Assembly: GCA_023052935.1 (NCBI GenBank)
Contig: CM041297.1
Span: 94,813,484-94,877,483 of the forward strand
Reading direction: 5' to 3'
DNA length: 64,000 nt
Source: Piezodorus guildinii
Taxonomy: Eukaryota > Arthropoda > Insecta > Hemiptera > Pentatomidae
The notes beneath the pieces are model-generated. The model had not been told where the DNA came from, searched no databases, and was given only the letters and a program-made list of their open reading frames with translations. Positions 7,501 through 44,490 of the stretch are shown piece by piece; within the stretch, counting starts at the first letter, position 1; every line of letters starts with the position of its first letter. A program made the translations under genes and the position numbers.

Positions 7501-7755
7501 AAAATGATATGTGGAACCATCAGGAGTAAGTCTGGTAAACAATATTTTAATTTTGCCGACGTTTCGGCTCAAACATTTGAGCCATCTTCACGGTTGAAAA
7601 CAAAAGAGATACACATCAATAAAGTATGACAATGAAAATTATGAATGTAAAGAAGATAGGAATGACAAAATAAAATAATGTAAACATACAAATTATAGAA
7701 ATAATGATGACTTTGAAATTAAAAATATACATTATATGACACAAAATAAAGTCCC

Positions 7756-8880: not shown

Positions 8881-8985
8881 GTTGGACTTGTATGCAGCCC
8901 TGATGAAGGCTCACATATTTGAGCCGAAACGTTGACAAAATTAAATATTGTTTACTAGACGGACTTTAATTTAATTTAATTTAGT

Positions 8986-11188: not shown

Positions 11189-11503
11189 TGTGTATAGCAG
11201 TCATCTTTCAAATCGGCTCTTGGATTTCATGCTTTTTCAGTTTGAATTCTCTTCAGTGCAATCTTGAAAACATCACCAGACTTCAGGATAACAACAGCAG
11301 TAAATATTGGAGCAAACAACAGTAAGTTTTGTTACAATTTACGGTGTAAAGTGAATGCTGGGTAACCTCTTCACATCAGCTGATTGCCAATAGCTCGGCA
11401 AGGTCGGGATTGGTTTACTTTTCTTTAGTTATTGTTTTATTACCAACATCTAGTTATTTTCTTATTATCTTCTTCACATGAAATGCGATATTTTCACCAA
11501 GTG

Positions 11504-12801
11504 ATGTCCTCCAAAGCATCAACTAAAAGATCTAGATCTAGTGGTTCAATCACGTTTCCCATAAAACAAAGACCCCGCCGTGATACTAATAAAAAATTAA
11601 ATCAACAAGCAACCCCTTCAGGTTCTAATACAGAATCTGAACCACAGCCTGGCACATCGTCACAGGGGATGACTGACGAATCTCCGTTTTTCACCCCAAA
11701 TCCTTTTCAAATCCTACATAATGAAAAAGAAAACATGGAATCTGCTCCTACACCCAGTGAACCACGGCCTCCACCGATATTTGTCAAAAATATTAAAAAT
11801 TTCCAGTTGTTATGTGCGCAATTAAACAAGATTACCGAATCCACCAGCTACTACTGTATGAGTAGAATCAATGACACCAAAATATCACCGACCACCGCCG
11901 AGGCATATAGAAAATTGTGAAATACCTAACTGAAACTAAAGCGGATTTTCACACTTATCAGCTACGGCAAGAGAGAGCTCTTAGAGTTGTGATCAGAAAT
12001 CTGCACCCTTCAACACCAGTTGACGCTATCAAAGAAGAACTCATGGAGATGGGTTACAAAGTGCGACAAGTCACTAATGTCATAAAAGATAGAGTTCAAC
12101 TGCCTCTATTCTTCGCTGACTTGGAACCATTAGCAGGAGTAGAAAAAATTTATGATCTAAAAAGACTGTATTATACAAGTGTAAGAGTCGAAAAACCTTA
12201 TACAAAGAGAGAAATTGTTCAGTGTTACAATTGTCAGGCGTATGGTCATACCAAAAGTTACTGTCACCACATACCACGCTGCGTGAAATGCGGTGAACAG
12301 CACAAGTCTGTGGAATGTACAAAACCGAAGTCAACACCCGCTGTATGTCCTCATTGCCTCAAGGACCACCCGGCCAACTACAAAGGATGCCAAATCTATA
12401 AGGAACTAAGGACCAGGTATCAAAAACCCCAAGTACTGGATGAAACAACAAGACAGGCTAGAACTAGAAGAGAACCCTCAAAATTAATCGATGCCAATGT
12501 ATCATTTGCCCACTTACTTGGAGGTGGGAACCAATGTACTGAAGCCGAGGCCCTGCCGGAACTACAAAATGTACCTCAATATCCTCAATCCATTCCACAA
12601 ATACCTCTTCCTCAAAACGTAATCAGTCCTAAAAATCCTCATCCACAACAAATCTCTCATATTCCCCCTCCTTCAAATGCCACAGATCTTACCAGTTTGA
12701 TGACATCCTTCATTTCCGAAATCAAATCCCTTGTCATGCCCCTAATAACAATCCTCACGAATCTTGTATCAAATCTTATTCCTAACTTAAAAAATCCATA
12801 A
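11504..12801 (+). pseudogene. Jockey-type ORF1 (gag-like nucleic-acid-binding protein), one frameshift
   Basis: ORF1 encodes the RNA-binding gag-like protein that coats the LINE transcript. I start it at the ATG at 11504 ('MSSKASTKRS'), because the longer open frame upstream begins at a TTG. The N-terminal half is basic, Ser/Pro-rich and disordered. The frame ends at TGA 11918-11920 and the protein continues in another frame from 11917 ('KYLTETKADFHTYQL'), which fits loss of one G. The second part has the PRE_C2HC-type region ('RALRVVIRNLHPSTPVDAI', 'LMEMGYKVRQVTNV') and then three zinc knuckles: CYNCQAYGHTKSYC, CVKCGEQHKSVEC and CPHCLKDHPANYKGC. A Pro-rich tail follows. The stop TAA (12799-12801) directly abuts the ORF2 ATG. 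Confidence 0.9.
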
Positions 12802-15473
12802 ATGACCTCGCCTAACTCCTTATCTATTCTCCTATGGAATGCGAATGGTGTTAGAACTCACACTGACGAACTTACAGCCTTACTCCAAGACAAAAAAGTT
12901 GACGTTGCACTCATTACTGAAACTAGACTAACCACTAAACAGTACTTCAAAATACCTGAATACACAACATACCGGACAGACCATCCAGACGGCAAAGCCC
13001 ATGCCGGTACTGCTGTCATTGTCAACCGATCCCTCTCCCATCACTTACACCCACTTCCCGCCCACGATTTCCTACAAGCCACCTCTATTATAATCAAGAC
13101 CTTTTCCTTTCCGCTAGTCATCGCATCAGCATACTGCCCTCCTAAAAATTCTATTTCTATTACCCAATTTGGTTCCTTCCTCAACTCATTGGGGAATCAC
13201 TTTATTCTGGGTGCAGACTTAAACGCGAAGCACCAACAATGGGGTTGCAGAACCACAAATACTCGTGGACGGACATTGCAGTCTGCACTCAACTCCAGAC
13301 GCCTTAATCTCCTACCTCCCGATTCCCCTACCTACTGGCCAACAGATCCTAACCGTAATCCAGACATCCTCGACTTCTTCATCCACAGCGGATTAGGCTC
13401 CCTGAACTATTCCGTAACTCGCCTTGATGAACTATCCTCTGATCATAGTCCATTAATCCTAAATGTATCCATGACTCCTATTCCGAAACCTTTCCCACCG
13501 TCATTCATCAGAGGCCCCATCAACTGGAACCTCTTCCGCGAAATCCTCACCAATGATATCGACCTCAGAGTAACTCTCAAAACCCCTTCTGACCTTGATG
13601 ATGCCGTATATTCCTTTACAACCTTGATTCAACAAGCTGCCTGGACTGCCTCCTTTCCTAAACAATCCCAAATTATTCCTTACAAATGCCATTTACCACA
13701 ACACCTGACGGACCTCATCAACACCAAACGCCGAGCCAGAACATTATGGCAACGCACCCGCCACCCAGAAGATCGCCGTTCTTATAACTTTTATTGTAGA
13801 AAATTAAAGCGGGAGTTGGCGACCTTTCGTTCCCAATCCTACAATTCCTACCTCTCCTCTCTCTCGACTCGTGACAATTCTCTGTGGAATGTTACGAAGA
13901 TAATCCTGAATACTCACACGATTTCCCATCCTCTCCTGCGCGGTGATAGTTCCTGGGCTGCTTCTGACAAGGATAAGGCCCAGGAATTTGCACAGCACCT
14001 TTCCAAAGTTTTCACTCCTCATCCTGAGTTGAATCCAAACCATACTTCAACAGTTGAACAGTTCCTTACTTCACCAATACCACTCTCCTTACCTCCTAAA
14101 GCAGTTAATCCCTCTGAGGCCAAATATCATCTTAAAAAGCTTCCTCTCCGTAAATCCCCTGGATATGATCTTCTCACGCCTCAGATCTTAAGACAACTTC
14201 CACAGAAAGCCATTACATTCCTTACATATCTTTATAACAGTATCCTACGCACTACCTATTTTCCTCTCTTATGGAAACATTCAACTATCATCCTTTTCCT
14301 GAAACCAGGCAAACCTTCCAACAGCACGTCATCTTACAGACCTATTAGCCTACTTCCGATCCTCTCAAAAATTTTCGAAAAGCTCCTACTAAAACGAATC
14401 CTAGATAAATTTAAAAATTTTCCTTCGCATCAGTTTGGATTTCGTTCTCAACATTCCACAGTTCAGCAAGGACTCCGAGTTGTGGATCACATTTCCTCTG
14501 CCCTTGAGTGCAAGGAGTATTGTTCGGGTGCCTTTCTGGACATAGCTCAAGCTTTTGACCGGGTGTGGCCCCGGGATTGCTCTTTAAGCTCAAAACCCAT
14601 TTACCTCAATCCTTATACCTAATCCTCCGATCCTATTTATCAAACCGCTCCTTCCGAGTTCGCTGTGGTTCCGAATTTTCCAAACATTATACTGTTGAGG
14701 CCGGTGTTCCTCAAGGCAGCGTCTTAGGACCCGTCCTCTACATCCTCTACACCGCCGATATCCCTACCGATCCCGATACCTTTCTGGCAACATTTGCTGA
14801 CGACACAGCCATTTTATCATCCAATTCCGACCCTGAAGTAGCATCTCTAAATCTCCAAAGGCACCTTTCCCTTGTCGAAGACTGGTGTAAGGCTTGGAGA
14901 ATTAAGGTGAACGAAAGCAAATGTTCACACGTCACCTTCACCCTTCGACGTAAATCCTGTCCAACAGTTAAATTCAATTCCATACCGCTTCCTTCCTCAG
15001 ACACAGTCCGGTACCTTGGCTTTTTACTAAACAAAAGACTGACGTGGAACCCACATACGAGACTTAAAAGGATAGAACTCAACCGCAGATTCGGCCGGTT
15101 ATACAAATTACTAAACAGAAAATCTCATCTTACAGTCGACAACAAATTACTAATATATAAGACAGTACTGAAACCTATATGGACCTACGGACTTGAACTA
15201 TGGGGGACAACTAAACATTCTAACATCAAACGTATCCAATCCTTCCAATCCAAAGTGCTCCGAACAATAGTTAATGCTCCTTATTACGTTACCAACTGTA
15301 CCCTACACCATGACCTTAATATTCCATTTATTTTGAACCTGAGTACCCAATCCAAATTCCATCAGAACCTTCTTCATCATCCTAATCCTCTTGCTCAATC
15401 GCTTTCCAGCTTCACCCATCCCTACAATCCTCCTCGAAGATTGAAACGGCAGTGGCCCCGCGACGTTTTGTAA
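12802..15473 (+). pseudogene. Jockey-type ORF2: APE endonuclease plus reverse transcriptase, one frameshift
   Basis: ORF2 supplies the nickase and reverse transcriptase for target-primed insertion. It starts at ATG 12802, directly after the ORF1 stop. The endonuclease domain spans about residues 1-225, with 'LLWNANG' (Asn), 'LITETRL' (Glu), 'GADLNAKHQQWG' (Asp/Asn) and 'SSDHSPL' (Asp-His). The RT domain has 'RPISLLPILSKIFEKLL', 'HQFGFRSQHST', 'AFLDIAQAFDRVW', 'AGVPQGSVLGPVLY' and the catalytic 'FADD' at about 14795. The frame breaks near 14569 (TGGCCCCGGG), just after AFDRVW. Other copies read CAC/CAT-CCG there (W-H-P-G-L-L), so one base is missing. The frame then runs to 15473. Total length is about 890 residues, normal for the clade. 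No RNase H domain is seen. Confidence 0.92.
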
Positions 15474-16523: not shown

Positions 16524-19500
16524 TTATCTCTGGAAACAGATGTGCTAAACTCAAAATAACAGTTAAATCTGAGAACTGCGGTGACAACGAAAACTGTTCA
16601 GGAAAAGGTGCCTGCTTCACAAACACATCAATGGTTAGAATGTACTTATAATTACCTATGCCATTAAAAATTTAGTTTTTAACTATGAAATAGGTTTAAA
16701 CTATACAAATTAAAAACTGAATATGTGTTTATTTATTTTAATTTTGTTAATATTTATGTATATTGTGTGATGTTTCTGACATTATAAGTGATGTTTATTA
16801 GCATTAATTATAGATCTAAAATATAATAATAAGATGGCTTGGAATGCAGTCGTAAAAAACTTCAATTACGCTTACTCATTTATTGTGCCGACTTTTCGGC
16901 CTACTAATCAGGGCTAAGAAAAAAATCAAGACAACAACCAATACAATTAAAAGAAAAATAATAAGATAACTGTTAAAAAAATATGAAAGAAGAGTAAAAT
17001 GAAATGACGACTTTGTTATAAAAATATTAAACAGTATTTAGAAGTAAGATGACAGTTAATCTTCTTAATCTTATTGTTACTAAATTAAATTTATTTATTC
17101 TACATAATATATCTCCACCTATAATTTACCTACTGCGCATACATTCTATTCATTTCTTGGTTTCTTACTATAATCTTCAAATAATTTCATACCAAAATTA
17201 TCATTTTATATTAGGTTGTTTCCTTATATTATTACTGTTATATTACTATTATTACTGTTATATTACTTATTATTATTTTTCTGTTAATTACATTGGTTAT
17301 TGTTTTGTTTTTTCTCAGCCCTGACGATGGCCAAAGATGTAGGCCGAAACTTCGGCAAATTGAGTTCACTTGATTTAAGTGTTTCTATGATTGCACTTCC
17401 AACCAACTCCTAATATTCTATCTTTTCAACTGTTTCTCCATCGTTATGCATACATCTAAAAGTTAGAAAATTATAAATTTTTGGATTGGTGTATTTTTCG
17501 TTCAATTTGTCACGCCTTGAAAGTTTTAATCGTAGGTTGAGCGTTTCTTATCCCATTTTGGATATAAGAACCATATGTCATGACTTCATCAGGCAAAAGT
17601 CAGGGCTGAATACCGTCTTTTGATCATGATAACTACGGACCGGTTCTGTACCACATTTGGTTAGTTATGAGTTAATGTAGTTAGAAAACTCAAATAAGAA
17701 ATTTATCCAAGAAACACGCTGATTCTAAACTACCGAAAAGATAGATAATTCAGTTTATCTGAGTTTTATATCAAGCTGAATAAAATTTTAATATCGGTTC
17801 GTTCCATATAGCATGTCTGTTTTCACAGGAAAGGTTATTTAGTAACTACTTGAGCGTATATGAAATATCTACCCTTCATTATTGATGCGTTATTAATTGA
17901 GTGTTATCAAATTTTCAGATCGAGAAAGGAAAAATGTAATTTAAGAAAAAGTAGAGATTTTTTTTTTTTACATGATAATCATATTCAAATATTTTATCTT
18001 TAAGGAAGTTGTCCAAATTTATAAACTGATGTAAATAAGTCTGGTGAATAAGCTGGGTGTGAAAGTGTGAAGGGGACTTTAAAATAAATTCGTTTGTTAT
18101 CTTTACTGCTTGTCATGAAACATAGGGTTCGGCGATATCGTTTAAGAGTATAGCTCCCTTCTTATTTACCTATGTTGGTTGTTTTTTGACACGTTTTGGA
18201 TGTATTATGTCAATGCCCCTGCAGTATATTGGGGTACCTGTAGCATGGTGGTTAGCTTAACTGCCTCCTATGCCCAAGGTCCCGGGCTCAAACCCGCAAG
18301 TGGCCCTAGGATTTTTAATGGGAGTAAAAATCCTAAAAAGCCGTCCTTCGAAGGGGACGTTAAAAGGTGGTCCCGAGTCTCTGCGATGACAGGTACTCGT
18401 TAAAGATCCCTATCCTAATTATACCTGGATAGGCAAAATTGAGGACTCCTACTGTAGCATCGTCCGATTAACCACAGCAGCATAAAATTGACGTTAAAGA
18501 AATAAACTGCAGTATATTTTTCTGGGTAATCCAAATCTGTGTCACCTGCCTAAAATTTTTAAATCCCCCGACGGATGGTCCGTTCGTTAAAATACTTTTC
18601 ACCAGTTAAAGAATCATCACTACTTTAGTGAACTGGAGTAAACTTTAATAACATCTCGAAATGGAACGCCCTGCCTCTAAAATTAGAGGGCTACTTATAC
18701 CTAGGGATTGTAGAGGGGATGAAGGAAGACGGAAAGAACTGAAGAAGAAAATTGTATTGTGGGAGATATTTTGTCGTTTAATTTAATATTTATCTTGTCA
18801 AATTAGTTTCTGTAGGTAAGATCTTTTATTGAAGTATGGGTATTGTACCGTGGCTGCAGGTAAGAGGGCTCGGAGATAAGCGATCTTTTTATTGAGTGAG
18901 AAAGCCCAAGATAAGCGGCATCCTTTTTATTTCTGAGGAATATTAATATTTTAAGAGACAAAGAGATTCTTAAATGTTTGAGTTTTAATGAAGTTACTTT
19001 TAACAATTACTGTAGTTGATGACTCAATCTCATTCTATAACCCCCGAATGTCCAAGCTTAAACTTTTAGAGGAGATGAAATATAATAAATAAATAGCCAG
19101 GTGCTGAATAATAATAATAATAAAAATATTCTTTACTGACTTTTTTATACACATGTTTAAATAAATAGGTGAAAATAAACGAAAACTAGAGAAAGAGACA
19201 AAATGAGGGGCGCACATAAACAACATATGATAAAAGACAACAGCTGGTGACAGGTTACAATGGATTTGCTACTGTAGAATAAAATAATATTTCTACAATA
19301 ATAAAAAACAGAAAATAAAATAAGAAATAAAAATTAGCTTCAATTAAATATGAAAAGAACAAAAGTATAATAATAGTGAAGCAGTGACAAATCCATTTGC
19401 CATAACATCTTTGCTCCCACCAGCCGTGTGCTTGTAACCTCACTCCATTACACACCCTTCACAAAATCATTAAAAAAATCTGGTGCGGGCTACACACGAA

Positions 19501-23323: not shown

Positions 23324-26300
23324 TATGGATTTATTAATGTTTTAAAATAATAATTACTCTAGCAACAGCTCTTACCAGAACAGATTTTGCGACTTAAGAA
23401 TATTTGGGTATTTAATAATATTAATTGTAGTTATTGGTTATTCATTGAAATAGTAATATTGTTGCATTAAGCAACATATTATTTTTTTTTTCATATTGGA
23501 TATAATTAGTTGACCATCGAGAATTACTAGAAGGAATTAGTCCGGGTGGTGGCCGATGAATGAAACCATTAGGTAGTTTCAACCATTTATTTTCTGCCAA
23601 CGTTTTTATTGTTTGCCAATCCCATTGTGGATCATCATCAGGGCGTATTATAGGCGAGTGGAAACTCACTTGCTACAATACGTTTCCACTTGCCCACAAT
23701 ATGCCCTGATGACGGCCCACAATGAGGGGCAAAACGTTGGCAGAAAATAAATGGTTGAAGCTACCTAATTATTTCATTCATAAATCAACCCCCGGACTAA
23801 TTCCTTTTAGCATTTTTTTTTCTTTTTAAATTTCCAGACTCTGGAAATCATAAACAGAAACAGCTAGCTGGATACGATTATTTTATAATTATACCCATAC
23901 AAGTCTTGAATAATTCATAAATTTTCTTAAAATTTTATAAGTTGTTTTGTTTCGTTTTTAAGTAAAATTGTTCAAGATCCATTTAAAAAAAAAAAAAAAA
24001 ATACAAATCTTTTTAACTTATTTTCAAAATATACACTTCCATATGAAAGTATTATAAATTAGTTTGAAGAATATTCTCACTTCATTATACTCAATGTCAC
24101 CCCTCAAATGCTCTCAAAATGAAACTATCAATTTTCATGAAATTTGTATATTGTTTTATATTTTTGCCTAATTATTATACTTAATTATGCTTAGTATTTA
24201 AGATTAAAACTAATTAAATTTTATCTTCTTTTTTTCCATTCACATATCTCTATGATGCTTTTATTTATTTTAATTATTAATGTAATAAATTATTTTATTT
24301 TCAGGAAGGTTATGAGTGTCTTTGTTGCGCTGGATATATTGGACCTCACTGCGAAGAAAAGGATGCATGTTATCAAAATCCATGCCAAAACAATGGCATA
24401 TGTGTTGACATTTCTCAAGGCCATGAGGGGTCTACATTTCAATGCCTCTGCCCATATGGTAACCACCTTAATAACTTCTACTCCCATTAATTATGAGTTT
24501 TACAGAATACTTATATTCTTGTTCTCATAGTTAATATTCTGAATTAGAAACTTATAATAACAATAAAGTAATTATTTAAAATACTATTTTAATATGCGAC
24601 TTTTTAAAACATCGCTGGGCAATTTTTAAAAATTCTGATTCCTATGCACTACTTTTTAAAAGTTTGAGACCACCTATGGTTTACAGCAATAAATTATGCA
24701 TAACCTCTATGAATACCTAAATAAAATATAAGTATCTTTTTATTATTTTTATTTATAAACAAATTTGCAGATTAGGTGTAAGAAAGTTTGTCAATATCGT
24801 AAATAACAAGAAATATTTTGATTAATTCCAATTATTACTGAGACTTCTTACTCGATAAAAGTAAATAAGAATAAACAATGTGATATTTGTGTCTGGAGCT
24901 TTAATTACGGTCTAGTAATCCCTTAAGGAGAATTGAGAAGATAAATTTTATTCCTAGTTTGATTTATTGATTTCTCAACTGCCAAATTTGTAACAAGTTC
25001 ACTACACAGGTAATTTTTTTCATTTAAGAACTGTTAAAAAGAATGAATTTTCAGTTGAACTGCATAGTGCAAACCACATAATAGACACAGAGAAAAACTC
25101 TGAGTGCCAAATGCCGCATACGAAATTCAAACAGATTAATCGATGTAAACCTTAGGTGGTCTCAAACTGATGATATATATGAGTTATTGAAGAACTATTT
25201 TCATTTTTTAATTCACATATCATTACTTATACTTGAAAATTATATGATTTTTGTCTGTATCCTGAGTATTGGGATATGTATTGGTATTAAATTCTGTTTT
25301 TTTTTTTTAAGGTTTCACTGGTAAAGTTTGTGAAGACACCTCAGATCCTTGCGAATCAGGACCTTGCCAACATGGTGGAACTTGCAGACCCAGCAACGAA
25401 ACAGCTAATCAGTTCAAGTGTATCTGCCCGCCGGGGTATACTGGACCGCACTGCCAGACACAGCTCGATGCCTGCTCGTCCGCACCTTGTCGTCATGGGA
25501 TCTGTGTAGATCAGAAGGAAGGGTACCGCTGTTTTTGTCAACCAGGTATAAGAAAAATTTAATTTAATAAAGTTAAAAGTTTTGATTTTACCCTTTAAGG
25601 ACCAACAGAGTAATGCAGCAGTATAAGATAGAGATGCTTGGTGATTGCTAGTAGAGTAAGCCAAGACTCGTTTGCGGGTTGTAGAGCTAAACTAATTAAT
25701 GAGATCTCAATCAAAATTTGTATTTTGTTTTTTAAAATTCCATTTTTGATTATGTATGTACTTGAAGACTTAATATACAGTTTGATAGAAATTTGGGATT
25801 ACAGAACTATTTTCTTTGTTTCTTTCTTTGTATACCCTCTATTTTCTGTCTCTAATCAAGACAGCAGTATTAGGGGATTGCTTCTAGAGCCTCCAGGCAT
25901 TCCACTTGTGCACCAATTATCTTATAGACCTCTATTTAATATCTCACAGGCCCTCATGGCTCATTCCTCCCGAGTCTTCCTAGGTCTGTCTCTTAGTCTC
26001 CTTCCTTCTGTAGTGACCCACTCGATAAATATTTTTTTATATTTATCTATAATATTTAATTATCTTATCGATAAATAACCACTGCAATAATTATTCAAAA
26101 TACCACATGTTTTTTTAATAAAACAAGGTTAAACAACAGAGTGAGTCCAGAACCGAGTGTGGCCTTATTAAGACATTTTATTTCAAGTTATGAGCATACA
26201 GTAAGTTGTTTGTTTATTATCTTTGGTTAGTCTGAATTTGTATGATTTTTTTTTTTTAGTTATTATCTTTCTGTTTGTATTATTTATTTTTAATTAAATT

Positions 26301-29300
26301 TTATTAATTAATTTTTTTTAAATTGTTCCGTTTAATTTTGAGTTTACTATTGTCTTTATATATAACCTTGCAAAACGAGGCTAAACTTCCATCACCATCT
26401 CATTATCGGCCTTACAATGTAATCCTCTGACATCCTTAAGCATGGCACAACCATCTCAGCTAAATGTCTAAAATAAGCTTCTCAGCTGATCTTACAATAA
26501 CATTGGATCTTATCGTGGCATTTCTAATTTTTTCCCACTACTTCATGCCCTCCACTTTCTTCAACAACCTCCATAGCCTGAAATTGGCAGATCTCCAAAA
26601 ACTATGCTAAACCAAAAGGTCTCGGGGCCATCTTCTTTTCAGACGCCTCGGAGGATTACCAGTGATTGTTTAGGTTGCAAGGTTTGAAAACTCTGGTGAA
26701 TTAGAGTGGGAATTGAGTTTGTCATGAAAGGACTGGTACCTGGTTCGGGCCAAATCAGCAACAAATGGAACATTTAAGTTCTTATGGATAGGTTGATTCA
26801 TAACAAACTAAGGAGCATTAAGGATTTTTCGAAGGATTTTTTATTGTAAGGATTGGAGACGGGAAGAATTTGATGGTGGTTTAGAGCCCCAAAGCTCTAC
26901 TCCGTAAGTCTATATGGCCTTATGATAGTAATGTAGGTGGATCTTTTGTAATTAAGCGGAAGCTTTGAGTGTTTGTCCAATAAGTGTTGCAGTAGTCGAA
27001 AACGTCGGGCAGTTTCTTGTCGTTTCAGTCTTGTGTGAGGATTCCAAGTAAGACGTTTGTCCAGATGAAGTCCTAGATATCGGATCTGTTTGACTAGGAC
27101 AAGCGGAGTGTTGTTGAAAGAAACAGTAGGGCAGGATGTCATCGGTTTACGACACAGGGTGAAGGTTATTTGGTGTGATTTATTGGAATTTATTTTTATC
27201 CTCCAATTCTGACACCATACTTTAAGTTCTCTGATGTGGGATTGAAGGGTTTGATATCATTATTTATTTTATTATTATTTTTTTTTCATTTAGCCCATAT
27301 TTGTTTCAGGTTTCACTGGCAGCCAGTGTCAGGAAGAGTATAATGAATGCGAAAGTAACCCATGTGCAAACGGAGGAACTTGCATTGACCACATAGACAG
27401 TTTTACTTGCAAATGTGCCAGAGGATACACAGGAGATACATGCCATATCAAAGTATGATCTTTTCCTTATGTTTTAATGAGAAATATCTCTCAGGGAGAA
27501 GTTGGTTCCAGATGCAGTCAAATAAAATTAAGTGGAAAATGAATTAATGTGTGCCTAAATTTCAGGCCTTCTTCAGCGCTATAAAAAAAAGATAACAACT
27601 AGTTGTAGAATACAATGTATAAAGATGATAAGTAAAAGAAATTTTGTATAATATTATATATATAGCAACTGGTTGTTATCTTTTTTATAGCCCGAAATTT
27701 AGGCTGAAACGTAGGCACAAATGAATAAAGTTTCCACTTAATTAAGTGTTTATTTGACTGCACCCGGAATCAACTTCTCCCCTATATGTACACTTTGTCA
27801 ACCATTCTCACTTTACAGAAATCTCTCATTTAACTGAAGTAATTTTTTTTTCTTTCTTTTTTTTAGATGAATTTGTGTGATCCAAATCCTTGTTCCCATC
27901 ATCATTATTGTGTCGATAAGGGAAACACCTACAGTTGTGAATGTCCCAAGGGTTTTACCGGTCCAGAATGCTTGATTCCTACAAGAGCTGTAAGATAATT
28001 TTTGCTAGTATTTTAATAAAACTTTTAATCAAATTAATCTCAGATCAATTTATTTTTAACTTAGAGTTATTTCAATTAAAAATTATAAACAGTAATGGGA
28101 AAATATAAAGAATAAAATTTAGGAAATTATTTTTTTCTTGTTTTAAAAAGACATTGTTAATGTCATATTGATTTATTTTTCTTTAATTTTATAGAAAAAA
28201 CTGTTTTATCCATTTCAATATTTACTAATAATTCGTTGCTATAAATTAGGAAAAAAACAACAAACTAAAGTAAGTAATGAAAATCCTCCTACATTTGTTT
28301 ACCACGGAACTGAATTAATGAAAAAAGAACCCCAGTTAGTAAATACTTCAAAAAGCCATTAGAAAATATACTAACAAGTAAAATCCTATAACGTCTCTTG
28401 TAAATCAAATATGCTTTTTACAAAAACATTTATAGAGAAAATCATAAAAATATTTGGAAAATTTATAAAATATTTTGAATAATGGAAGTAGTCTATTATT
28501 CAAAGGAGTCTTAATCACCCCATCAACGGGGACAATGATCCAATAACTATCTCCTTATAACATGTTGGATGTGTATAGTAAAGTATGAGTTGATGAAGCT
28601 CCATAGGGAGAAAGGATTTTACTTTTTTGTTGAGGTCATTACATTCACAATGATGAATCCACGAGGTACGGAGATGTTGCATTTCCCAAGAGTGGAAGGA
28701 TGGTGCAGTCACGATTTGAGAGTAGTAACCATGATCATACTAATAGATGGAAATAGAAAAAAAATTAATAGAAACAGATCTAAACAATAAAATAAAAAAA
28801 CCAAAACAAAAATTTATAACTCAATTTTTCAAAGATGATAAGATGATAGATAGGTCAGAAGTAAAAACCGATAAACAGCATATCAACAGTAATTGCAAGA
28901 AATACCACAAACTAACATATATCCCAAAATTGACAGAATCCATAAAAAGTATTTTTTAAAAATATGATCACCCAAACATATCATTTGGCCTATACAATAA
29001 TAACAAATTAGAAAAATATTTAAGCAAAATGAAAGACAAAATAGAAAAAATGGACAAGCAAAATGTAATATACAAAATAGACTGCAAAGATTGTGAAAGC
29101 ATATATATAGGTGAAACTTCTAAAAAATTAAAAACAAGAATAAACCAACATATATCCAACTGTAAAAATATAAAAAACACAAACGCAACAGCATTATCAT
29201 CCCATAGTTTAATAAAACAACACAAATTTAACTTCGAAAACACAGTAATTTTAGATACATCTCAAAATAATAGAAATAGAAAACTACTAGAAGCAATCCA

Positions 29301-32300
29301 TATAACCAAAAATAATAGCAGGACAATAAATTATAAAACAGATACAAAAAACTTAGGAACTCATTATACAGATATCATAAATAAGATACAATTTTAAAAA
29401 TAAATAAAACAATAGCCCAAGAACCATAATTTGGACAAATAATTAATAGAGGTAAAAATAAAAATAAATAAAAAGCAATAAGGATTACACCGGAATACTG
29501 AAAAGGTACAAAGGTTTAAAATAGAAATATAATGGAAACAGTGAGCCAATAGACAAGTAGCAGTGTGCTATAAGATGTAATGAATAAAGAAAAATGTAGC
29601 AAGGATTAAGGTAATTTAAATTAGTTAGTTTAAAATATTTTTGACAAATTGCTAAGCTTCATTTTTCAAAGAAAAATATTTAAACAATGTAATTTTATTC
29701 AATAATGTAAGTATAAAAAACAGTTTCAGTCTTGAAAATGGGGAAACAACCCCGAAACGTCGACTAAGATGGAATAAAAAAAAAGGTGTTAAAAGACTTA
29801 GGAAATAAAGTAACTGGATGATGAATGGAAGGTAGTGGGTGCTTTATTGAATGTTCCAAAAAAAATTAATTATTTGAGAAGTGGATAAATTGAACTTCCT
29901 GGAAGAGAAGTTCTGCGAGACCTTTGAAGAGATTAAGCTGACTGTGAAAGGTCTCTGATTTGGATCTCAAACAACAATAACGAGCAGAACAAGGAGCTTT
30001 CCAGAAAACCTATGTGTTAATATATGAGACTTGTGCGAATATGGTGAAGAATATTATTCTGGACTCTTAATCTAGATGTTATTTATGTATATTTCTGCGT
30101 GTTTAATAGTTTTCAAGATAAACGTCTTCAAGTAAAAAATTTTTTCACCTAAAAATCTGAAATCAATATTTTGTTACATTATTTTGCTAAATATATATTT
30201 TCACTTTGATATCTGCGCAACCATTCATTTTAGCAAAAACATCTAATAAATCATTTTTGTAGACATTTTAAACTACTTTAATTTTGTATAGAGTGATTTT
30301 TTCTATAAAGATAATACTTTTTGAGATATTCACATAAAACGAAAAACAAATTTAATCCCTCCAAAACCAGATGTGGAAAACTCTGGAACTTTTTAGCGGT
30401 AAATAAGGAAAGGATAGTAAACAATTCATGACAGGTTTCAGCTTTGTTTTTGAGATGTTTGGGTTAAACCTGATGTTACTGTACTATAAGCCTTCCATCT
30501 CATCTAAAAAGGTGATGGTTACTGTTTGGTGGGATTCATTTTTTTCGATTCACAACATCTTCTGGAATTAATGTTTAATTATCTGAAAGCAATTTAAGCA
30601 TCAGAAATTAGCGATGATGAAGCCAATTTTCATCAATCGGAAGATGACCATTTTTTGTATCACAACAAACTTCATGAACATTTTTAGAGCTTGGCTATGA
30701 GATTCTGCCACACCCAACCTACTCTTAAGACCTCTCGCCTACTAGTTACCATTTTTTTAGACACCTAAACCACTTCTTTCAATTTTTTTTTTTTTTTTTT
30801 TTGTATTTATATTTACAACTGTATTTTAAAATACATTCAGTAAATGTGATACAAGCTTAAACTGTCATGATTCACATGTAGAGATACTGCCCATTGGCAG
30901 ATCTCCAAAAACTATGTTAAACTAGAAGGTCTCGGGGCCATCTTCTTTTCAGACACCTCGGAGGATTAGCAGGGATTGTTGAGGTGGCAAGGTTTGAAAC
31001 TAGTGGATTAGAGTGGGAATGGAGTTTGACATGGAAGGACTGGTACCTGGTTCGGGTCAAGTCAGCAACATATGGAACATTTAGGTCTTTATGGATAAGT
31101 TAATTCGTAACAAACTAAGGAGCATTGAGAATTTTTCGAAGGATTTTTGATTGTAAGGATTGAAGACGGGAAGAATTTGATGGTTTAGTAGAACCCCAAA
31201 GCTATACTCCGTAAGTCCATATCAGCCTTATGATAGTAATGTAGATGAGTCTTTTGTAATTAAGTGGAAGGTTTGAGCGTTTGTCCAGTAAATGTTGCAT
31301 TAGTCGATAACATCGGGCAGTTTCTTGTTGTTTCAGTCTTGTGTGAGGATTCCAAGTAAGACGTTTGTCCAGATGGAGTCATAGATATTGGATCTGTTCA
31401 ACTGGGACAAGCGGAGTGTTGTTGAAGGAAACAGTAGGACAGGATGTCATTGGTTTAAGACGCAGGGTCTTTCAAAATAAAAAAATTATTGATAAAAAAA
31501 TTGTTTTTTTCTTTTTATAATTAAAAATGTAAACCTGTATTATTTTTTTTGGGATACCCAATAAAATGAAAGAGGAAAAATGCATTTATATTGTGTGTAG
31601 TGATGGAATGTCGAGTATTTTGTTTCTTACTGCAAACTTATGCGTTTGGTTAACTATTATTGTAATAATCATTCCTTACCCCTTACAGATTGCTTAAATT
31701 TTGCGAAAAACGGAGGCTATAAATATCAAGGAGGCTATCAAATATAATTGATGTTATGGATAATTATCATAAATAGCATTCGTGAGATTGAAATGGATCA
31801 AATAGATTCCTTTATATTTCATTAATTATTATATTACTAATTAATATTCAAGTTTGTGGTATTTTTTTTTTTACTTTTTGACTAGAGAATTTTGAAATAG
31901 ATTTGAAAATTATGGAGGTAAACAACATCCGAATAAGGTTTAATTTTTCTAATAAATGAATGGACTTGTTAGTTAATTAAAATAATATACAGAAACTCAT
32001 AATAGCAATAAATAATAATTTATTATAACAATTTTTCAGGCTTGTAGTGCAAACCCATGTAGAAATGGTGGCACATGCTGGAGTAGTGTTGAATCTTTCT
32101 ATTGTGCTTGCAGACCAGGCTACACTGGAAAGATTTGTAATGGTAAATTAACAGCAATTATTTCTAAAATATTCTATTTAGGAATTTTCTGAGCAGCTTC
32201 ATCCACACTTTTCAGAGGAAGTAATTTTTGAAGTAATACCACCAAGCAGTTCTTCTGATATAATCGATCTTAACGGCAATGAACAACCTATAGACCTGCA

Positions 32301-38265: not shown

Positions 38266-39232
38266 GAAAATCTGTTACGCTATTAGGATTTAGTATCCTT
38301 TTACCCCTTATAAATTAAACCAGCATCAATTGTAAGAAAATTACAGAAACTCGAAACTGACACCTTTTCATATAAAGTCACCCAAAGACCTAAACAAATA
38401 ATGGTATCATTTTATACTACTCATATTTTAGTAATACTACAATGTCTGTATGAAATCATATAATTTTGTAAACATTAAAAAATATATTTGCATTCTGTAA
38501 CAATTTTTAACAATCTCATTGCTGTCTATCTCAAGGCTCATCAACTCTATGAAACTTAGGTGCCTTCCCAACCAATGAATACAATATTTCCCATGATTAG
38601 GACTGATCAATTTTCAATATACATTCTAGACATCAGGAAAGAAAATGATCACTGGAGAGATGGAGTAGTCATAGTTGTGCTGACAATGGGTAGCTTATTC
38701 ACTTGTCATTTTTGTTTGATAATATACTTTATTCAAGCAATTAATTATTTATTATGACTCGATAATTAGAGCAATTTGTTTTGAATATGCTGTAACTCCA
38801 TTATTGACAAAAAGTTAGTTGATGATTTAATTGAATGCAATCGGCCTTATGCTTTTTTCTAAAAACAGTTGCCATAAAAGATACTTTAAGATTTTCATAA
38901 TTTTGTCATCATAAATTTACGTAGTTAATGAAATTACAAATATAATTGCAATGAAAGTGGTGTAAACCCATTTTCTGCAAAGAATTTTTATTTAGTTTAA
39001 AAGTTATTATAAATAATTTACATTACTTTAATTACATTATTATATTCCTCTAATATATCATAACTACTTTCACCAACTTTCTCATGATGAAAAAAGTTTA
39101 AAATGGAAGATATTAATACAAAGTTATAATTTTTTTTTTTCTGACATGTTTAATAAGAACACCACTTTAAAAGAAGTAAATTTGTTATATACTTTTGATA
39201 AACTGTTGATTTTTTATCTTTATTTTTAATTT
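38266..39232. other. AT-rich intergenic stretch
   Basis: No gene or repeat family is recognised. It ends at the left TSD of the LINE at 39243. Confidence 0.5.
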
Positions 39233-39242
39233 TTAATTGAAC

Positions 39243-41492
39243 GTCCAGATATCCTTGATATATTTGTTTCCTCTCAGATATCTTCCTCCCAATCCACAAT
39301 CAAAACCCTAAATGACCTTTCATCTGATCATCATCTTACAGTTCTGCTTTCCTTGCACTCGAGCCTTGTTCCTAAACCCACCATTCCCACTCTGATTACA
39401 GGACGAGTAGAATGGGACGGATTCAGAAGTGACTTGGAAACCAAACTGGACTTAAAAATCTCACTTAAGACTACACATGATATTGATAAAGTCGTTGAAC
39501 AACTGACTGACTCAATTAGCAGTAGCATACTTGACAACACTTCGACCATTAAGACTACCAACTCACAGGAGACTACCCTGCCACAGCACATTCGAATCTT
39601 ATTAAGGGAAAAACGCAGGGCAAGATCGAAGTGGCATAGGATCAGATATCCATCAGACAAAACCTATTATAATAAACTGACTAACAGACTGAAAACAGAA
39701 ATCAGAAAAGCAAAAATCCAAAACTTACTTAACTTCACCGAAAAACTTACTATTACAGACAGATCATATGGATGACGACAAAAAAGCTACTGAAGTTCAA
39801 AAACTGTAATCATCCACTCCTAACAGAATCCCATGTCTGGACAAGATCTGATGAAGAGAAGGCCCAGATATTCGGTCAGCACCTTTTTCGAACCTTTAAT
39901 CCACATCCAGACGTCCATAATCCTGGTCACATTAAGTTTATAGAAGATGAACTAGATATTCTACTCCAAATGGCCCTTCCTCCTAAAGCGCTTCATCTGT
40001 CAGAAATATCTAACATTATTCAGAGTTTATCATCCCGCAAAGCTCCTGGGCATGATCTTATAACTTCCCATATTTTAAAAGCACTTCCTCGAAAAGCTAT
40101 CCTCTATCTCACTTACATATATAATTCCGTACTTCGTTCCACCTACTTTCCGGCCTCCTGGAAATTATCCATCATCAAAATGATACCCAAGCCTAAGAAA
40201 CCGCCTGAAAATCCATCTCACTTCTACCAATCATGAGTAAAATATTGGAAAAACTTATCCTAAAACGCCTGTATTCCATCCTTAATACTAATTTCATAAT
40301 TCCTGATCACCAGTTTGGATTCAGAACGTCCCACTCCACTATGTCATCGTGTGGGGGACGTTGTCTCGTCTACATTGGAGCGTGGCTTGTATTGTACGGG
40401 AGCCTTCCTTGACGTAGAACAGGCCCTCGACAGAGTCTGGCACCCGGGATTGCTTTACAAGCTCCGCCAATTCCTCTTTCCTACATACTTCCTTATTATC
40501 CAGTCCTACCTCACTGGCAGATCCTTCAAAATCAATCATAATAATTCATTTTCGTCCATTTTTAGACAGTCTGCTGGTGTCCCTCAAGATAATATCCTAG
40601 GACCCATCCTTTACACAGTTTATACAGCTGATATCCCAACCCATCCTAACACCTTCCTTTCTACTTATGCTGATGACACTTGTGTGTTATCAGTCAATAC
40701 TGATCCAACTATTGCCTCTCCAATCCCACTTCAGAGACCTTGAAGTATGGTGTCAGAACTGGAGAATTAAAATAAATTCCAACAAATCCAACCAAATTAC
40801 CTTTACCCTTCGTCGTAAACCTATGACTTCCTGCCCTACTGTCTCCTTCAATAATACTCCTCTTGTCCCGGTTGAACAGATCCGATATCTAGGACTGCAA
40901 CTTGACAAATGCCTCACTTGGAATCCTCATACAAGACTGAAACGACAAGAAGCTGCACGACGTTTTCGACTACTTCAACACTTACTAGACAAACATTCTA
41001 ATTTTCCACTTAACTACAAAAGACTCATCTACATACTATCATAAGACCGATATGGACTTACAGAGTTGAGCTCTGGGGCTCTACTAAACCATCAAATTCT
41101 TCTCGTATCCAATCCCTTCAGTCCCAAATCCTTCGTAAAATCCTCAATGCTCCTTACTTTGTCACCAACAAACTCATCCATAAAGACCTTAATGTTCCAT
41201 ATGTTGCTGATTTGGCCCGTACGAGGTATCAATCCTTCCATGACAAACTCCTTTCCCACCCTAATCCTTTCGTTTCAATCCTTTCTTCCTCTTCAATTCC
41301 TGACAATCCTCCGAGGCGTCTGAAAAGGAGATGGCCCCGAGACCTTCTAGTTTAGAATATTTTTAGAGTGCTTCCATTGGGAAGCTTCTCTACATGTGTT
41401 TCATGCCTTTTTATGTTTCATTCAAATTTACTTGTTGTATTACTTGTTATATAGTTGTAAATTCCAATAAATAAATATATAAAAAAAAAAAA
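39243..41492 (+). mobile_element. 5'-truncated Jockey-like LINE with 10-bp TSD
   Basis: TTAATTGAAC is duplicated at 39233-39242 and 41493-41502. The element starts inside the endonuclease domain ('RPDILDIFV', 'LSSDHHLTVLLS' region) and continues through the RT: 'RKAPGHDLIT', 'HQFGFRTSHST'-like, 'GAFLDVEQALDRVWHPGLL', 'AGVPQDNILGPILYTVYTADI', 'YADD' and the thumb 'IRYLGLQLDKCLTWNPHT'. It then has a 3' end with AATAAATAAATAT and about 12 A. Frameshifts occur near 39775, 40240, 40330, 40740 and 41045. It is the same lineage as 11170-15934 but a distinct subfamily, and the closest match for most antisense fragments in the window. Confidence 0.92.
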
Positions 41493-43805: not shown

Positions 43806-43919
43806 GACACATTCCAAAGTGCTCTATACTTCAGAGTCCCTAAAGGCGGAAATGTTTTCTCCAAAATAAAAAAGTAAATAATGGCTGTATTGAGAATGTA
43901 TAGTCGACTGTAGAAACTA

Positions 43920-44155
43920 TCATAGGTGGAAATAATCAGGGGGCAGTCTTTTGTTAAATATTTTAATTTTGCCGACGTTTCGGCTCAAGCTTGAGAGCCA
44001 TCATCAGGACATTACTGAGCCATGTCCAAGCATAACAGTTTATGCTTAGACATCGCTCAGTTATATCCTGATGATGGCTCACAAGCTTGAGCCAAAACGT
44101 CGGCAAAATTAAAATATTTAAAAGAAGACTGACTCCTGATTATTTCCATCTATAA
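43920..44155. mobile_element. Palindromic fold-back element with the best-preserved hammerhead-like motifs
   Basis: An almost continuous palindrome is centred near 44037. The outer arms GGTGGAAATAATCAGG / CCTGATTATTTCCATC and the inner AGGACATTACTGAGCC / GCTCAGTTATATCCT pair. On the minus strand the left arm (44010 to 43974) reads GTC-CTGATGA-TGGCTC-TCAAGCTT-GAGCC-GAAAC-GTC-GGC, which has every conserved hammerhead core position. The right arm on + (44068-44104) is the same except AAAAC for GAAAC. The left-arm copy is the most plausible active ribozyme in the window, as a dimer because stem III is only ACGT. Confidence 0.88.
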
Positions 44156-44177
44156 ATAATGGCTAAATTATATAGAT

Positions 44178-44490
44178 AAAAAAAAAAAAAAAAAAAAACT
44201 ATATCTTTACAACACATGAAGGGACTTCTAGTACATAGTTTAGTACATATAGAGATTCGTATTTCTTAGTATACGTTCTTGCAAGGTGATCATTACGGCG
44301 AGATTACGCTTAACCGCCTGAGTTTTCCCCAATTTTCATAGAGCTGTGTGCCTCAGAAGGGTCCCTATACCCTAGCATCGCCTTTCTGCTGAAATAACGT
44401 TGTAAATAATTACTCTGTCACTGCCGGGATTCGAACCCGAGGCCTAAGGAAGAATAGACTAGTGCTCTATCCACTAGGCTCTAATTAACT
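44178..44490 (-). mobile_element. SINE2 (tRNA-derived, -)
   Basis: The minus strand starts with a tRNA-like head (CTAGTGGATAGAGCACTAG, then GGGTTCGAATCCCGGCAG), then the SINE2 body, ending in a poly(A) (T/A run at 44178-44199 on +). Boxes A and B are well preserved. Confidence 0.85.

Follow-up and report, generated by a model that had tools for sequence, protein, structure and literature searches.

How does a near-perfect palindrome with a hammerhead-ribozyme motif in each arm come to lie at positions 43922-44153 of the window, by which we mean the whole 64,000-nucleotide stretch analysed (C6:94813484-94877483 of a 1.2-Gb eukaryotic genome)? A preliminary description took it for a non-autonomous fold-back element, linked to Penelope-like elements (PLEs), whose two arms might each supply the other with a ribozyme partner in cis. 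We consider it probable, with a likelihood of roughly 0.8 on the sequence evidence, that the palindrome instead represents two back-to-back copies of a short hammerhead-bearing RNA of PLE type, target-primed from both strands. The parts of the locus are as follows.

43875..43886 (+): left target-site duplication, TAAATAATGGCT; direct repeat with 44153-44164, 12 nt with 1 mismatch in the aligner
43888..44035 (-): main unit copy, 5' end at 44035 and tailed 3' end at 43888; matches unit positions 3-149
43888..43920 (-): tail, about 32 extra nt on this side only, from the family alignment; a like asymmetry marks 35/40 palindromes
43906..43948 (-): predicted stem-loop GACTG/CAGTC, from RNA folding of the family unit
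loop CCACCTAT of that stem-loop: site of the tail-less 3' end of partner arms (partner ends at unit 115-119), putative reverse-transcription start 1
43970..44011 (-): minimal hammerhead motif of the left arm, core letters intact; 27.4 bits, E=1.4e-5 with covariance model R1
between 43974 and 43973 (-): predicted hammerhead cut, left arm
44036..44037: joint of the two copies, here with a 2-nt filler, from the unit alignment
44038..44152 (+): partner copy in opposite orientation with tail-less end, unit positions 1-117
44064..44105 (+): damaged hammerhead motif of the right arm, with AAAAC in the place of GAAAC and a weaker stem I; R1 17.2 bits, E=0.021
44153..44164 (+): right target-site duplication, TAAATAATGGCT; direct repeat with 43875-43886

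The palindrome first described is real, its arms (43922-44035 and 44040-44153, 4 nt between them) being 114 nt long and 90% complementary, and the computed fold of its RNA, at -169.6 kcal/mol (z -26.9), was equalled in stability by 0/200 shuffles. The whole element reaches beyond it to 265 nt, adding the unpaired tail at 43888-43920, and has the 12-nt direct repeats on both flanks; the alignment of the partner copy extends to 44155, into the right duplication. Within these 265 nt there is no frame of at least 150 aa and no room for an open reading frame encoding reverse transcriptase (RT) and GIY-YIG, so that the element is not an autonomous PLE. Sub-threshold microRNA matches from Rfam at 43850-44220 were set aside as a by-product of the long hairpin. 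By eye, unit positions 16-28 hold an A-box-like TGGCTCAGTAATG, a candidate for an internal pol III promoter, which we do not claim.

A complete hammerhead core had been read in both arms; both do carry a core, and that of the left arm is intact. Its letters are canonical, the combination CTGATGA..GAAACGTC occurring once in the window, at 43974-44007 (-), and in 0 of 100 shuffles, and its stem I is TGTC/GGCA with one G-U. The right core lies on the opposite strand and reads CTGATGATGGCTCACAAGCTTGAGCCAAAACGTC at 44068 (+); the change from GAAAC to AAAAC noted earlier is therefore genuine and hits the base that we take to be G12 in the conventional numbering, and stem I is reduced to ATC facing GGC. 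The absence of stem III is likewise supported: the ACGU is self-complementary and unable to form this stem alone. The idea that both arms supply the partner in cis fails on the damage to the right arm and on the orientation of the cores, since any one transcript would contain one sense core and its antisense, pairing with each other.

Is this motif related to the hammerheads of PLEs? Rfam gave no match in the whole 64-kb window at the gathering threshold, and no hammerhead at 43850-44220 at E<=10. It also found no hammerhead in L057, L062, L063 or L069, four PLE-borne loci of the same genome that all carry PLE-associated motifs by pattern; its silence at the palindrome is thus uninformative, and we dropped it as a judge of hammerhead identity. 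We built the covariance model R1 solely from these four loci, which lie elsewhere, leaving out a fifth, L065, that was misaligned in the initial alignment. In the R1 alignment 6/8 pairs change on both sides, with a covariation score of 0.708 that 0/500 shuffles reached, for four sequences of which two come from one family. Run on the window with no filters, R1 gave 28 matches at E<=10, led by the window's own PLE (29728-29765, E=1.6e-11) and the left arm; then came 7554-7595 (-), 17317-17357 (+), 8896-8937 (+) and the right arm. The covariance-model match asked for in the preliminary description came for both arms from the PLE-derived model, and from no Rfam model. These matches support both the hammerhead motif and its kinship with PLE hammerheads, with catalysis as a prediction, and the left arm contains all that defines the minimal PLE type (CUGANGA ... 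GAAA ... UH, with stems I and II). The match at 17317-17357 (E=2.3e-5) is a lone PLE-type motif in which GAAACTTC replaces GAAACGTC.

In all nine hammerheads that we compared, as parsed here, an additional base separates CTGANGA from stem II, and 8/9 retain the self-complementary ACGT. Conservation of the core in other copies of the unit, also anticipated, is partial: it is intact in 67/108 gap-free arms, and its 11 non-CpG sites mutate at 0.027 against 0.047 elsewhere, which in this weak test is not significantly slower (P=0.07) and is not counted as support.

What, then, is the mobile unit? A search with the 236-nt palindrome, a query lacking the tail, returned 2970 first-look candidates; the 40 that were scored, at 40 distinct places, form set A, a sample selected for complete palindromes. 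Searching with an arm and its tail returned 2087 candidates, of which 40 were scored; six were already in set A, and the remaining 34 comprise set B (33 copies selected for a complete tailed arm) and a tandem array, L098. Copy number looks high, judging from the best 40 of 2970 candidates. Across the 73 copies compared, the unit is a single arm of ~150 nt, to which a second, inverted arm is joined at the 5' ends in 62. The main arm of set B copies ends in the tail and starts at unit position 1 in 27/33 (at 2-5 in the others), the preceding base being mostly A (..A followed by GTTTATGCTTGG). Its partner is full in 7/33, lacks the inner part in 11/33 and consists of the inner part alone in 4/33 (L071, L072, L088, L103); a convincing partner is absent in the other 11 (score under 35, with weak matches in L077, L078, L094 and L096).

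The joints between the arms are equally variable. Fillers of at least 5 nt occur in 40/62 partnered copies and all 40 are different (23/23 in set A, 17/17 in set B), the other joints having shorter fillers or small overlaps; the longest are 186 nt of other DNA in L092 and, in L024, a 154-nt extra arm. The 186 nt of L092 bring to mind the pLTRs of Adineta vaga, which have captured host DNA between them. Since fillers and joints differ from copy to copy, most palindromes were made at insertion, and the fold-back element of the preliminary description, with most joints different and partners of varying length, finds no support as the unit that moves.

The palindrome could nevertheless itself be mobile, as a fold-back DNA transposon or MITE or as an RNA palindrome copied whole. 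Its high copy number (on the same 2970 candidates and 40 scored), long inverted repeat and flanking duplications would suit such an element, and in set A a one-base centre is common to 10/40 palindromes, three of which belong to a young subfamily of five near-identical copies; L004 and L008 have a common centre, GTA. It is possible that these ten were copied as whole palindromes, and they do not decide the mobile unit. Against this stand the differing fillers, the varying partner length and the existence of copies with no partner, as well as a tail usually confined to one outer end. DNA transposons make a target-site duplication of fixed length, whereas here the duplication length differs between copies; with neither a conserved inverted unit nor a fixed-length duplication, the element does not look like a fold-back DNA transposon or MITE. 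We regard mobility of the palindrome as a whole as very unlikely.

The two arms of a copy also resemble each other beyond the consensus. They share 65 non-consensus letters where 16.4 are expected (maximum 41 in 2000), an excess driven largely by the five near-identical young copies (L037, L038, L039, L041, L048). With these removed, the arms share 9 letters among those seen at most three times (1.4 expected, maximum 7 of 2000) and 5 among those seen at most twice (0.5 expected, maximum 6).

The outer ends are more regular than the joints. In set A, one arm is tailed and the other tail-less in 35/40 copies, both are tailed in 1/40 and neither in 4/40; independence predicts 20.1 mixed pairs, and 20,000 shuffles never gave more than 31. 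The ends of tail-less partners are concentrated at unit positions 115-119 and those of main arms at 147-149, the query unit ending at 149. The 11 partners of set B that lack their inner part still end on the outer side at 115-125 in 10 cases and at 147 in one. With one mismatch allowed, 40/62 partnered copies lie between duplications of 10 nt or more, against 3.3% of swapped flanks; such duplications are found in 7/11 inner-truncated copies, 0/4 outer-truncated copies and 1/11 copies with no partner. With head-to-head pLTR copies, a tail on one side and a target-site duplication, the element has the hallmarks of a non-autonomous PLE; this anatomy and these end statistics are read directly from the copies. 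L042, a tail-less copy, has a palindrome that runs ~35 nt into the flanking DNA on both sides, either an inverted target duplication or an assembly artefact.

The position of the two ends coincides with a predicted structure. In the predicted fold of the unit's tail region, a stem GACTG/CAGTC encloses a further stem and an 8-nt loop, and it is in this loop that the tail-less end lies. A PLE family of this genome, family B, has a like predicted fold although its letters differ, and there too the end is at the loop; for another, family A, the equivalent fold (-5.5 kcal/mol) is only about equal to the minimum (-5.7 kcal/mol). Both target strands are cut and extended by a purified PLE enzyme, whose synthesis begins internally in an AC-rich stem-loop; it has two start sites there, and the genomic tail lies between them (PMC11167929).

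Does the genome contain elements that could provide such an enzyme? A GIY-YIG search gave 103 matches among the 150 scored of 2216 candidates, with open frames of at least 900 aa listed for seven of the 103. Pfam recognised GIY-YIG in 3/4 PLE fragments tested and an RT domain in 0/4; relatives of a family B fragment carry RVT_1 and GIY-YIG domains, the best-scoring at 38% identity, and one comes from the beetle Onthophagus taurus. The link to Penelope made in the preliminary description is well founded, for the GIY-YIG-bearing PLEs of this genome share with the unit the type of hammerhead, whose stems covary between families, the head-to-head layout, the tails and the duplications. GIY-YIG neighbours within 12 kb are head-to-head in 13 cases, tail-to-tail in none and on the same strand in 8. 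Nine of the 13 head-to-head clusters were inspected at both ends (at C7 2.04 Mb the outer copies of a four-copy array were compared). Seven of the nine are tailed on exactly one side; the two tailed on both, at C1 53.13 Mb (L051/L054) and C5 130.51 Mb (L061), belong to family A. In six of the one-tail clusters the copies align over 640-1010 nt at 99.7-100% identity, and in the seventh they are 100% complementary over 2029 nt; a duplication is clear by eye in 6/7, the exception being C7 3.45 Mb. L054 and L061, on different chromosomes, have ~60 nt of 3' flank in common.

Among 20 GIY-YIG loci with 1.5-kb flanks, in which the 5' ends lie mostly outside, no PLE with the unit's own pLTR was found, and the unit resembled only 53 nt of L065 (83%). 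The window's own PLE (28768-29845, of which 28768-29394 plus a 3' part was considered) was rejected as the source, its hammerhead and end being those of family A. This PLE shares 99% identity with a further copy across 209 aa, has the hammerhead core TTGAAAA, and stops at its 3' end at the tail-less site.

Two-strand target-primed reverse transcription is, in our judgement, the best explanation of these observations, and a better fit than the self-priming published for PLEs. The element would be a non-autonomous retroelement of ~150 nt, derived from or parasitic on PLEs. Its RNA would begin at a near-constant 5' end, carry a minimal hammerhead motif and form a stem-loop from which reverse transcription could start at two sites, in the loop and ~32 nt further 3'. 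A PLE-type GIY-YIG/RT enzyme would nick both strands of an AT-rich target, and each target 3' end would then prime a cDNA. As a rule one cDNA would begin at the 3' site, which gives the tail, and the other at the loop site, which gives none. Both cDNAs would run to the 5' end of the RNA or stop early; joining of the two at their 5' ends, in many cases with filler, would leave a palindrome within a target-site duplication. We infer that the enzyme acts in trans, that the template is sense RNA and that two templates serve each event. Two strand-primed cDNAs beginning at two sites on sense RNA would account for the fixed outer ends, the single tail and the inner truncation, and their joining at the 5' ends would account also for the filler, the duplications and the letters shared by the arms.

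Under self-priming, a single cDNA or antisense RNA folds back and copies itself into a head-to-head palindrome; as far as the accessible part of PMC3846280 goes, self-priming on an antisense template was proposed for the Penelope elements of Adineta vaga from palindromes at inverted junctions. It expects equal outer ends, which are seen in 2/9 PLE clusters (both tailed) and 5/40 set A palindromes (1 with both tails, 4 with neither), yet 35/40 palindromes pair a tailed with a tail-less arm. It also expects truncation on the outer side, as in the 4/33 set B copies that hold only the inner part of the partner; these four, however, have no duplication of at least 10 nt, and the 11/33 partners that lose their inner part but keep the start-site end are not explained by self-priming alone. 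We therefore think self-priming unlikely. Two-sided priming has its own exceptions, namely the 4/33 outer-truncated partners and 11/33 missing ones, the two both-tailed PLE clusters and the 10/40 palindromes with a common one-base centre. Some inner truncations could be later deletions at an unstable palindrome centre, given that a complete main arm was the criterion for entering set B.

What part does the hammerhead play? Its predicted cut falls after unit position 64. The starting point of the copies lies 64 nt upstream of this, near unit position 1, and not one of the 11 truncated partners stops at the cut (positions 64/65), their ends spanning 28-91. Taken together, these positions indicate that cutting apparently does not define the ends. 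The same facts bear on whether the unit is a metazoan retrozyme, that is, a tandem unit cleaved by its hammerhead, circularised and reverse-transcribed by some non-LTR enzyme. The array L098 (388-1613), in which a 20-nt spacer separates the repeated units and shorter pieces are scattered among them, fits that scheme and could be a source locus or a local expansion, and the length of the unit falls within the 150-300 bp given for animal retrozymes in the available part of PMC7761336. But copies that start 64 nt upstream of the predicted cut, truncations that avoid it and a minimal PLE-type hammerhead with no stem III are not what retrozymes would leave; the units are neither hammerhead-defined nor circularly permuted, and the element is not a metazoan retrozyme in that sense. 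We find this origin most improbable.

Recently amplified PLE families differ in their core letters. Family A, with near-identical arms, has TTGAAAA, a change that we take to be C3 to U with G8 to A, retaining the 3-8 pair; family B, also with near-identical arms, has CAGAAGA at 2/3 places seen (C1 83.78 Mb and C4 72.2 Mb), presumably U4 to A, and CTGAAGA in L062. These altered cores, with the ACGT kept in 8/9 motifs, leave room for a role in RNA pairing. We raise, as a doubtful suggestion, that PLEs retain their minimal hammerhead chiefly for pairing and not for cutting, the ACGU joining two RNAs so that each target strand has its own template. If so, this would account for the frequent head-to-head insertions, for the one-tail rule and for recently amplified families that retain the fold despite altered core letters. 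The published PLE ribozyme needed protein in order to cleave, and insertion in vitro did not depend on it (PMC11167929).

The closest known systems are PLEs of the GIY-YIG class (Penelope/Poseidon; PAc of Anolis; Pen2a of Adineta vaga). They resemble the unit in the minimal hammerhead of the pLTR, AT-rich targets and internal start sites (PMC11167929), and in target-site duplications and an inverted pLTR head-to-head with a direct one, where one inverted copy has an optional tail, of ~31 nt in PLEs; the accessible text of PMC3846280 describes inverted pLTRs with an optional 31-bp tail and head-to-head as the commonest layout. Unlike them, the unit consists of the pLTR-like piece of ~150 nt alone, with no open reading frame, and the palindrome is its usual product (62/73 copies, in samples selected for the arm). 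Minimal type I hammerheads with no helix III are dispersed by the thousand in animals, mostly in non-coding DNA, according to passages of PMC7761336 and PMC7229834. The unit's motif differs from these in having defined element ends, tails, duplications and partner arms, features that suggest how dispersed hammerheads spread; at least some of those in animal genomes may be short passengers of PLEs. With metazoan non-LTR retrozymes it has in common a short non-coding hammerhead unit and one tandem array, and it differs in the lack of stem III, in copies that are not permuted at the cut and in insertion ends that are PLE-like.

LINE-1 twin priming, in which the second target strand primes on the RNA to give an inverted piece, offers a further parallel. 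Here too an inverted piece would arise from second-strand priming on RNA, except that the event is apparently common, its start site is near-fixed and the second arm is often full-length. As to the insertion mechanism of PLEs itself, self-priming was proposed in 2013 (PMC3846280), and cutting and extension of both strands were demonstrated in vitro in 2024 (PMC11167929), the later steps remaining unvalidated. Because the unit is only ~150 nt long, every copy shows both ends and the joint, and a genome-wide set of copies would thus be a ready record of the mechanism; the present sample favours two-sided target-primed reverse transcription. Titles and abstract beginnings of the open-access literature yielded no description of such a short, high-copy, head-to-head unit.

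Other parts of the window hold related arrangements. Hammerhead units at 7504-7603 (-) and 8888-8965 (+), 82-87% like the unit of the palindrome, lie head-to-head 1.28 kb apart. We considered them as a truncated autonomous relative and rejected this, as there is no PLE protein match there; the stretch before the 8888-8965 unit is LINE-coding-like, being similar to the 3' coding end of the LINE present in the window. That LINE, which we take to be Jockey-like, has long but broken open frames at 11429-15473, with a further fragment at 39230-40236. A second head-to-head pair of hammerhead-like units, of another family, occupies 23522-23815, with arms of 85 nt (86% complementary) and 43 nt (84% complementary).
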